DNA of 64,000 nucleotides from Ailanthus altissimus (lineage: Eukaryota > Streptophyta > Magnoliopsida > Sapindales > Simaroubaceae). The notes beneath the pieces are model-generated. The model was not told the DNA's origin. It did no database searches and worked only from the letters and a program-made list of their open reading frames with translations. The stretch is taken from assembly GCA_946807835.1 (NCBI GenBank), contig OX327693.1:6155501-6219500 (forward strand), given 5' to 3'. The position numbers and the translations under genes were made by a program. Below, in pieces: positions 30,270 through 53,713 of this stretch (positions are counted from its first letter, which is position 1; the number at the start of each line of letters is the position of its first letter).

Positions 30270-30601
30270 GTATGTTGATTTCGCAAGTATTATGTAAATT
30301 ATCATATCCTATATTTTGTCCTAAATTCATTTGAAGATTCAGAAGACATGGGCGTTTCGTGCCACCTACAAGAATATTTTTCCCCAAAAACAATGTCAAT
30401 TGAAGGTTCCTTCATTTACCAATGATTTCTATTAGTGTTATATGTCTTTATTATCTTCTCTTGCTTATATTGATGAGAGGATGACTTTACTATCAGTTAG
30501 GGATTGTTTAATTAGTCATTGAGTTTATTAATTACTAACTAGCCATAAAAGTAGAATAGAGTTATGAAATTGAATGATCTTGAATTGCTGTTTCTGAAAA
30601 G

Positions 30602-30688
30602 CCTGATGACTGAGATGAATAAGAGGATGGAATTTGGAGGCCGCCTAAGATACCGAATCCAGCTTATAAAGGACCATGGAAGCAGAAG
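30602..30688 (+). pseudogene. CRT3 pseudogene exon 7 (first of 40 copies), two stops
   Basis: Reads PDD-stop-DE-stop-EDGIWRPPKIPNPAYKGPWKQK. The first stop replaces the Trp of a DWD motif (TGG to TGA), and the second replaces a Glu (TAA). The acceptor is poor (CTGAAAAG, no CAG), while the donor GTGCTT is acceptable. The last copy of this exon lies at 53222-53308. Confidence 0.92.
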
Positions 30689-30771
30689 GTGCTTTTAAAA
30701 TTTCAGGGTGAAAGTTGACAACCAACATTCTTGGTGCAATTTTTATTATTGAGATCTTTATGGTTTTGCAG

Positions 30772-48800: not shown

Positions 48801-51800
48801 ATAACCCAGGTAATTTTCTCTCTGCAAGGTTTAGGAACTAAATTGTGTCACAGATCAGGGAGTAGAAGATAAACGTTGAGCCTTTAATGCAAACTAGGAA
48901 ATAGTGATTATTAAATGGAAATGAACATAAATCAGATGGTATATGTACAGCAAGTTTGATTGTAGACTGGACCAGGTAGTATGGTCAAACTGCCAGAAGC
49001 ATGTCCAGTTACCTAAGAATATTAAAAAAATCATTTTTAAACTGGATTACCTGCACTCTGAGACATCTTGCCCAGTCATTGAGTTTATTAATTACTAACT
49101 AGCCATAAAAGTAGAATAGAGTTATGAAATTGAATGATCTTGAATTGCTGTTTCTGAAAAGCCTGATGACTGAGATGAATAAGAGGATGGAATTTGGAGG
49201 CCGCCTAAGATACCGAATCCAGCTTATAAAGGACCATGGAAGCAGAAGGTGCTTTTAAAATTTCAGGGTGAAAGTTGACAACCAACATTCTTGGTGCAAT
49301 TTTTATTATTGAGATCTTTATGGTTTTGCAGAAAATCAAGAACCCCAACTACAATGGAAGGTGGAAGACTCCATGGACTGATAACCCAGGTAATTTTCTC
49401 TCTGCAAGGTTTAGGAACTAAATTGTGTCACAGATCAGGGAGTAGAAGATAAACGTTGAGCCTTTAATGCAAACTAGGAAATAGTGATTATTAAATGGAA
49501 ATGAACATAAATCAGATGGTATATGTACAGCAAGTTTGATTGTAGACTGGACCAGGTAGTATGGTCAAACTGCCAGAAGCATGTCCAGTTACCTAAGAAT
49601 ATTAAAAAAATCATTTTTAAACTGGATTACCTGCACTCTGAGACATCTTGCCCAGTCATTGAGTTTATTAATTACTAACTAGCCATAAAAGTAGAATAGA
49701 GTTATGAAATTGAATGATCTTGAATTGCTGTTTCTGAAAAGCCTGATGACTGAGATGAATAAGAGGATGGAATTTGGAGGCCGCCTAAGATACCGAATCC
49801 AGCTTATAAAGGACCATGGAAGCAGAAGGTGCTTTTAAAATTTCAGGGTGAAAGTTGACAACCAACATTCTTGGTGCAATTTTTATTATTGAGATCTTTA
49901 TGGTTTTGCAGAAAATCAAGAACCCCAACTACAATGGAAGGTGGAAGACTCCATGGACTGATAACCCAGGTAATTTTCTCTCTGCAAGGTTTAGGAACTA
50001 AATTGTGTCACAGATCAGGGAGTAGAAGATAAACGTTGAGCCTTTAATGCAAACTAGGAAATAGTGATTATTAAATGGAAATGAACATAAATCAGATGGT
50101 ATATGTACAGCAAGTTTGATTGTAGACTGGACCAGGTAGTATGGTCAAACTGCCAGAAGCATGTCCAGTTACCTAAGAATATTAAAAAAATCATTTTTAA
50201 ACTGGATTACCTGCACTCTGAGACATCTTGCCCAGTCATTGAGTTTATTAATTACTAACTAGCCATAAAAGTAGAATAGAGTTATGAAATTGAATGATCT
50301 TGAATTGCTGTTTCTGAAAAGCCTGATGACTGAGATGAATAAGAGGATGGAATTTGGAGGCCGCCTAAGATACCGAATCCAGCTTATAAAGGACCATGGA
50401 AGCAGAAGGTGCTTTTAAAATTTCAGGGTGAAAGTTGACAACCAACATTCTTGGTGCAATTTTTATTATTGAGATCTTTATGGTTTTGCAGAAAATCAAG
50501 AACCCCAACTACAATGGAAGGTGGAAGACTCCATGGACTGATAACCCAGGTAATTTTCTCTCTGCAAGGTTTAGGAACTAAATTGTGTCACAGATCAGGG
50601 AGTAGAAGATAAACGTTGAGCCTTTAATGCAAACTAGGAAATAGTGATTATTAAATGGAAATGAACATAAATCAGATGGTATATGTACAGCAAGTTTGAT
50701 TGTAGACTGGACCAGGTAGTATGGTCAAACTGCCAGAAGCATGTCCAGTTACCTAAGAATATTAAAAAAATCATTTTTAAACTGGATTACCTGCACTCTG
50801 AGACATCTTGCCCAGTCATTGAGTTTATTAATTACTAACTAGCCATAAAAGTAGAATAGAGTTATGAAATTGAATGATCTTGAATTGCTGTTTCTGAAAA
50901 GCCTGATGACTGAGATGAATAAGAGGATGGAATTTGGAGGCCGCCTAAGATACCGAATCCAGCTTATAAAGGACCATGGAAGCAGAAGGTGCTTTTAAAA
51001 TTTCAGGGTGAAAGTTGACAACCAACATTCTTGGTGCAATTTTTATTATTGAGATCTTTATGGTTTTGCAGAAAATCAAGAACCCCAACTACAATGGAAG
51101 GTGGAAGACTCCATGGACTGATAACCCAGGTAATTTTCTCTCTGCAAGGTTTAGGAACTAAATTGTGTCACAGATCAGGGAGTAGAAGATAAACGTTGAG
51201 CCTTTAATGCAAACTAGGAAATAGTGATTATTAAATGGAAATGAACATAAATCAGATGGTATATGTACAGCAAGTTTGATTGTAGACTGGACCAGGTAGT
51301 ATGGTCAAACTGCCAGAAGCATGTCCAGTTACCTAAGAATATTAAAAAAATCATTTTTAAACTGGATTACCTGCACTCTGAGACATCTTGCCCAGTCATT
51401 GAGTTTATTAATTACTAACTAGCCATAAAAGTAGAATAGAGTTATGAAATTGAATGATCTTGAATTGCTGTTTCTGAAAAGCCTGATGACTGAGATGAAT
51501 AAGAGGATGGAATTTGGAGGCCGCCTAAGATACCGAATCCAGCTTATAAAGGACCATGGAAGCAGAAGGTGCTTTTAAAATTTCAGGGTGAAAGTTGACA
51601 ACCAACATTCTTGGTGCAATTTTTATTATTGAGATCTTTATGGTTTTGCAGAAAATCAAGAACCCCAACTACAATGGAAGGTGGAAGACTCCATGGACTG
51701 ATAACCCAGGTAATTTTCTCTCTGCAAGGTTTAGGAACTAAATTGTGTCACAGATCAGGGAGTAGAAGATAAACGTTGAGCCTTTAATGCAAACTAGGAA

Positions 51801-53713
51801 ATAGTGATTATTAAATGGAAATGAACATAAATCAGATGGTATATGTACAGCAAGTTTGATTGTAGACTGGACCAGGTAGTATGGTCAAACTGCCAGAAGC
51901 ATGTCCAGTTACCTAAGAATATTAAAAAAATCATTTTTAAACTGGATTACCTGCACTCTGAGACATCTTGCCCAGTCATTGAGTTTATTAATTACTAACT
52001 AGCCATAAAAGTAGAATAGAGTTATGAAATTGAATGATCTTGAATTGCTGTTTCTGAAAAGCCTGATGACTGAGATGAATAAGAGGATGGAATTTGGAGG
52101 CCGCCTAAGATACCGAATCCAGCTTATAAAGGACCATGGAAGCAGAAGGTGCTTTTAAAATTTCAGGGTGAAAGTTGACAACCAACATTCTTGGTGCAAT
52201 TTTTATTATTGAGATCTTTATGGTTTTGCAGAAAATCAAGAACCCCAACTACAATGGAAGGTGGAAGACTCCATGGACTGATAACCCAGGTAATTTTCTC
52301 TCTGCAAGGTTTAGGAACTAAATTGTGTCACAGATCAGGGAGTAGAAGATAAACGTTGAGCCTTTAATGCAAACTAGGAAATAGTGATTATTAAATGGAA
52401 ATGAACATAAATCAGATGGTATATGTACAGCAAGTTTGATTGTAGACTGGACCAGGTAGTATGGTCAAACTGCCAGAAGCATGTCCAGTTACCTAAGAAT
52501 ATTAAAAAAATCATTTTTAAACTGGATTACCTGCACTCTGAGACATCTTGCCCAGTCATTGAGTTTATTAATTACTAACTAGCCATAAAAGTAGAATAGA
52601 GTTATGAAATTGAATGATCTTGAATTGCTGTTTCTGAAAAGCCTGATGACTGAGATGAATAAGAGGATGGAATTTGGAGGCCGCCTAAGATACCGAATCC
52701 AGCTTATAAAGGACCATGGAAGCAGAAGGTGCTTTTAAAATTTCAGGGTGAAAGTTGACAACCAACATTCTTGGTGCAATTTTTATTATTGAGATCTTTA
52801 TGGTTTTGCAGAAAATCAAGAACCCCAACTACAATGGAAGGTGGAAGACTCCATGGACTGATAACCCAGGTAATTTTCTCTCTGCAAGGTTTAGGAACTA
52901 AATTGTGTCACAGATCAGGGAGTAGAAGATAAACGTTGAGCCTTTAATGCAAACTAGGAAATAGTGATTATTAAATGGAAATGAACATAAATCAGATGGT
53001 ATATGTACAGCAAGTTTGATTGTAGACTGGACCAGGTAGTATGGTCAAACTGCCAGAAGCATGTCCAGTTACCTAAGAATATTAAAAAAATCATTTTTAA
53101 ACTGGATTACCTGCACTCTGAGACATCTTGCCCAGTCATTGAGTTTATTAATTACTAACTAGCCATAAAAGTAGAATAGAGTTATGAAATTGAATGATCT
53201 TGAATTGCTGTTTCTGAAAAGCCTGATGACTGAGATGAATAAGAGGATGGAATTTGGAGGCCGCCTAAGATACCGAATCCAGCTTATAAAGGACCATGGA
53301 AGCAGAAGGTGCTTTTAAAATTTCAGGGTGAAAGTTGACAACCAACATTCTTGGTGCAATTTTTATTATTGAGATCTTTATGGTTTTGCAGAAAATCAAG
53401 AACCCCAACTACAATGGAAGGTGGAAGACTCCATGGACTGATAACCCAGGTAATTTTCTCTCTGCAAGGTTTAGGAACTAAATTGTGTCACAGATCAGGG
53501 AGTAGAAGATAAACGTTGAGCCTTTAATGCAAACTAGGAAATAGTGATTATTAAATGGAAATGAACATAAATCAGATGGTATATGTACAGCAAGTTTGAT
53601 TGTAGACTGGACCAGGTAGTATGGTCAAACTGCCAGAAGCATGTCCAGTTACCTAAGAATATTAAAAAAATCATTTTTAAACTGGATTACCTGCACTCTG
53701 AGACATCTTGCCC

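Follow-up and report, generated by a model that had tools for sequence, protein, structure and literature searches.

The window analysed here, a 64,000-bp stretch of the Ailanthus altissimus genome (positions 6155501-6219500 of contig C11), comes from an assembly of 939,062,666 bp in 37 contigs and contains no N. It harbours a tandem array, located about 6.19 Mb into the 30.6-Mb contig. Matching the window to itself at an offset of 580 bp placed the array at window positions 30514-53716, where its 23,203 bp divide into 40 units of 580 bp and leave an AGT at the end; this 3-bp remainder is common to both array ends, and the match fell to background directly outside them. The self-match confirmed the 40 near-identical 580-bp units of the original prediction and their start at 30514, while the predicted end at 53713 was shifted to 53716, since the terminal AGT belongs to the array. 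The array was not in the list produced by TRF, in which the longest period was 500. A chance repeat was ruled out by the near-perfect periodicity over 23 kb, and a coding array was rejected because no open stretch in a piece of two units exceeded 57 codons. A search of window positions 30000-32400 for RNA families returned none at E values up to 0.1.

Comparison of the array base by base at offset 580 yielded six mismatches, all of which were traced to a single variable site, unit position 318. Only two unit types were therefore present, 36 of the 40 units carrying T and four carrying C, with no other difference between them. The C was found in units 18, 24, 25 and 27 (window positions 40691, 44171, 44751 and 45911, plus strand), and it turns the splice donor of exon 8 from GT to GC at the +2 position. 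Units 1-17 and 28-40 were free of variants, leaving 10,178 bp without a mark at the left end of the array and 7,806 bp at the right end. The earlier claims of one T/C site only, and of edge copies as uniform as the core, thus both held. A search of the window flanks with two units as query gave four rows at two places only, 17 and 25 bp long, and no degraded unit copies were detected there at E values up to 0.1.

The array lies within a broken copy of a gene whose intact duplicate is found on contig C21 (positions 4469330-4479620), where the region corresponding to the unit is single-copy. The C21 gene model, which was built by hand, has 14 exons and 13 GT-AG introns, and encodes a product of 422 amino acids with an open frame, an HDEL end and a Pfam Calreticulin assignment. 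Seventeen solved calreticulin or calnexin sequences matched this product. Among 4,061 protein matches, the top one was calreticulin-3 of Pistacia vera, and many others in the best 120 of the 4,061 also carried the name calreticulin-3. Given these closest relatives and the HDEL end, the C21 copy was assigned to calreticulin-3. Its last 110 residues include 29 acidic ones, while 28 of 110 are reported for the C-domain of Arabidopsis CRT3 and 44 for CRT1a (PMC2893204), although the stretches in this comparison were not aligned like for like.

Alignment with the C21 gene showed that the unit begins in intron 6 and ends in intron 8 of a calreticulin-3 pseudogene, in agreement with the identity and the intron limits that had been predicted. 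The first unit (30514-31093, plus strand) consists of part of intron 6, exon 7, intron 7, exon 8 and part of intron 8, with pseudo-exon 7 at 30602-30688 and pseudo-exon 8 at 30772-30829 (both on the plus strand), each recurring every 580 bp. The single-copy 5' part of the pseudogene (27279-30513, plus strand) contains exons 1-6, and the single-copy 3' part (53717-59338, plus strand) contains exon 9 and the remains of exons 10-14. Both flanks were colinear with the C21 gene, which bears out the prediction that single-copy parent sequence is preserved on either side of the array.

The C11 copy is colinear with the C21 gene throughout but carries many disabling changes, which were read by eye from the alignments. 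Frameshifts were found in exon 1 (13-bp deletion), exon 3 (1-bp insertion) and exon 4 (2-bp and 8-bp deletions), and stops in exons 7, 10, 12, 13 and 14, so that this copy was classed as a pseudogene. Exon 10 has a 17-bp deletion at its start and a changed donor in addition to its stop, exon 11 is cut after its first ~20 bases, the stop in exon 13 accompanies a 1-bp deletion, and that in exon 14 comes early. Pseudo-exon 12 also contains an 18-bp tandem duplication (57955-57996). Exon 7 has two stops, which were seen on translation; since they occur in all 40 units, they are most simply explained as older than the amplification. The splice signals of exons 7 and 8 (AG acceptors and donors) are kept in each unit, the donor being GC in the four marked units. 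Judging from the sequence, any transcript of the array would be predicted to contain repeats of a 145-nt exon pair (87 + 58 nt).

The unit was 87% identical to the C21 gene over 574 aligned bases. With one unit kept in and gaps left out, C11 and C21 differed by 12.4% over the left flank; the corresponding values were 12.9% for the unit and 15.3% for the right flank. Because these values are similar, the unit appears to be ordinary local sequence, and a transposon or other inserted element was rejected as its source.

Further calreticulin-3 sequences were observed elsewhere in the assembly. Fragments covering intron 2, part of exon 3 and intron 3 are present on C16 (L016, 9010-9419) and C20 (L017, 4010-4208), and are 90-94% identical to C11, while the C21 copy is 78-81% identical over a longer region. 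Additional calreticulin-3-like copies are located on C23, C30 and C16 (L018, L019, L020); exon 3 of the C30 copy contains a stop, and the one on C16 looks degraded.

A 32-mer spanning the unit-unit junction had 39 matches at up to three mismatches across the 939-Mb assembly, a count that is a lower bound in this type of pattern search, and all 39 fell inside the array; its reversed control had none. A search of the assembly with the whole unit returned five rows: two were pieces of C21, and the other three were short stretches matching exon 7 or exon 8. It should be noted that this search passes over common words, as it missed the array itself, and is therefore non-exhaustive for dispersed single units. 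A genome search for the unit and its unamplified allele had been suggested along with the original prediction, and the outcome was a junction found only at this locus and a single-copy duplicate locus on C21. The older, divergent array elsewhere that had been named as contrary evidence was not encountered, in that the assembly-wide junction search at up to three mismatches showed no copy outside the array. Among the titles and abstract openings of the papers retrieved, we found no description of the array.

The ends of the array offer a hint as to how it started. The AGT at the left end of the ancestral unit (30514-30516) matches the 3 bp at the right end (53714-53716), beyond which the single-copy intron 8 continues, and the first duplication may have joined these two AGT sequences 580 bp apart. 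Microhomology of at least 3 bp is expected by chance at 5% of breakpoints according to a formula, and at 8% according to random pairs in the left flank. The AGT pair was absent from C21 in the alignment. Being short (P = 0.05 or 0.08) and missing in C21, this microhomology is a weak hint and could be due to chance.

More can be learned from the variable site. The C21 gene has T at this position, indicating that T is ancestral and C is derived. The marks in units 18, 24, 25 and 27 follow no exact period under 27 units, and periods of 25 and 26 fail in a single comparison. Four marks within 10 units would occur at random with P = 0.030, a statistic that was picked after the marks were seen. A parsimony count considering duplications only, with deletions and gene conversion left out, required a minimum of three tandem block duplications to derive the pattern from one C, reaching back to a 31-unit array. 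With no exact period and at least three block duplications needed, copying between units went on after the mutation. The growth history is nevertheless read from a single informative site, and gene conversion could have spread the C mark without any block duplication.

We consider it probable that the 580-bp stretch of the dead gene underwent one AGT-AGT duplication and then grew recently to 40 copies by repeated in-register block duplication. Such growth might have proceeded by unequal sister-chromatid exchange or break-induced copying. The T-to-C mutation would have arisen in one unit and then been copied into three more by at least three block duplications, suggesting that exchange was faster than mutation. 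In simulations of the stepwise-growth model alone (36 settings with 300 runs each), one shared site at 2-10 copies appeared in 0 to 15.7% of runs. At the top mutation rate, seven of nine settings gave none or few such runs, and two settings without a holding phase gave 10-14%. The one-site pattern is thus possible under stepwise growth, and the simulation provides no ranking of models.

The original prediction took the array for a very recent burst, by rolling-circle or template-switch amplification, or for a product of exceptional homogenisation. For a rolling circle to explain the present array, a 580-bp circle would have been copied and its concatemer would have re-entered the remaining genomic copy by homologous recombination, leaving the flanks intact, with limited gene conversion spreading the C later. 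Near-perfect uniformity from edge to edge, the short direct repeat at the unit ends and the intact flanks are all consistent with such an event, yet we regard it as unlikely. Rolling-circle copying is expected to leave units that are uniform or strictly periodic in their order, and the order seen has no exact period below 27 units; since no template circle under 27 units reproduces the C pattern exactly, later exchange would be needed anyway. A one-shot burst is accordingly not supported as it was put, given that C is derived, its marks lack a short exact period and at least three block duplications are required by duplication alone. What the data do support is that a single-copy stretch of the dead gene was amplified recently.

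The array might instead be much older than its present units and owe its uniformity to strong homogenisation, for which unequal crossing-over and the reinsertion of extrachromosomal copies are routes named in a review (PMC5615363). The C pattern does show exchange after mutation, and differences between units date the units and not the array. We nevertheless judge this very improbable: no degraded copies were found at either edge, where homogenisation is expected to fail, and no related units were found elsewhere by the junction search or the non-exhaustive whole-unit search. An artefact, in which the true copy number differs or short-read polishing has removed rare variants, seems to us just as improbable. 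According to the assembly report, the DNA fragments averaged 12-20 kb after shearing, the reads were assembled by hifiasm, and one round of polishing was performed with 10X reads and FreeBayes (PMC10472066). Fragments of this length face a 23.2-kb array in which two stretches, of 10.2 and 7.8 kb, carry no mark, and the same report gives 1,170 Mb by flow cytometry against 939 Mb assembled (PMC10472066). On the other hand, a read of 12-20 kb would probably be long enough to link either flank with the C marks, the window is free of N, the four C marks survived polishing, and the unit-unit junction was found nowhere else, which argues that the array was not borrowed from another locus. The copy number of 40 is probable rather than proven, because few reads of 12-20 kb can span 23 kb. 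Polishing with short reads could also have erased rare variants, making the array look younger and more uniform.

Since all 40 units agree at every position but one, the array is in all likelihood very young. Assumed mutation rates of 1e-9 and 7e-9 per site per year were used to bound its age. With no more than one mutation over 23,200 bp, the upper bound (95%) came to 204,310 years at the former rate and 29,187 years at the latter, where the bound dates the last common copy of the units and not the first duplication, and assumes that copies have been independent since amplification and that no variants were lost in polishing. We propose no function for the array, which is most likely neutral, lying inside a gene that was already dead. 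More tentatively, we suggest that it may be a satellite-type repeat caught no more than tens of thousands of years after its birth and still changing in number, in which case the unit number at this locus would vary among living trees, from a single copy to many, and a comparison of alleles could reveal in which order the first duplication, the block growth and the first mutation took place.

The birth of tandem repeats has mostly been inferred from old, spread-out satellites. The C11 locus retains its parent sequence and both breakpoints, together with one internal mark, and can be set against an unamplified duplicate. With all four available, models of birth (rolling circle versus stepwise unequal exchange) become testable within one species by comparing alleles, and the array would give an unusual opportunity to see a satellite-like repeat next to the single-copy sequence it came from. 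Like a satellite, it consists of many near-identical units arranged head to tail (40 x 580 bp with one variable site); a typical satellite, by contrast, forms long arrays and occupies many loci or accounts for a sizeable part of the genome, whereas this is one 23-kb array.

The kringle IV-2 repeats of LPA resemble the C11 array in that units containing exons are repeated in situ within a single gene whose flanks are intact, but LPA is a functional coding gene and its units measure 5.5 kb, whereas the C11 gene is dead. In New World monkeys, the CapA satellite shows homology to a NOS1AP intron, and duplication and unequal crossing-over have been proposed as its likely origin (PMC7210261), so that single-copy intronic sequence was turned into a tandem repeat there as well. 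Similarly, the C11 unit is homologous to single-copy genic sequence, represented by the C21 locus. CapA units, however, are ~1,500 bp long, make up 2.2% of the Saimiri boliviensis genome and are located in the heterochromatin of several chromosomes (PMC7210261), whereas the C11 array is a single 23-kb array still within its parent pseudogene, with exons included in the unit. Spread of the C11 unit beyond its parent locus was not seen with the junction at up to three mismatches or in the non-exhaustive whole-unit search. A satellite derived from a single-copy intron is therefore already known from what is reported for CapA, and what sets the C11 array apart is that it appears young, keeps its parent setting intact and has exons within its unit. 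Plant satellites derived from dispersed repeats or LTR elements, including those of Lathyrus and, as cited in PMC7004042, those of potato centromeres, share with it the tandem amplification of a pre-existing plant sequence. Their units come from dispersed repeats or LTR elements (PMC7004042), while the C11 unit is a gene fragment at its own locus.

Several other features were observed in the window. A Copia-type LTR element with RVT_2 and integrase domains occupies positions 17422-22272 on the minus strand, and its 300-bp end repeats are 98% alike. A perfect 82-bp tandem duplication (18954-19117) is present where the two open frames of this element meet. DUF936 and DUF6857 domains lie on the plus strand on either side of the element (13823-23699), and may belong to one gene with the Copia element in an intron. 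TRF also listed a 36-bp minisatellite of 5.6 copies at positions 7886-8087.
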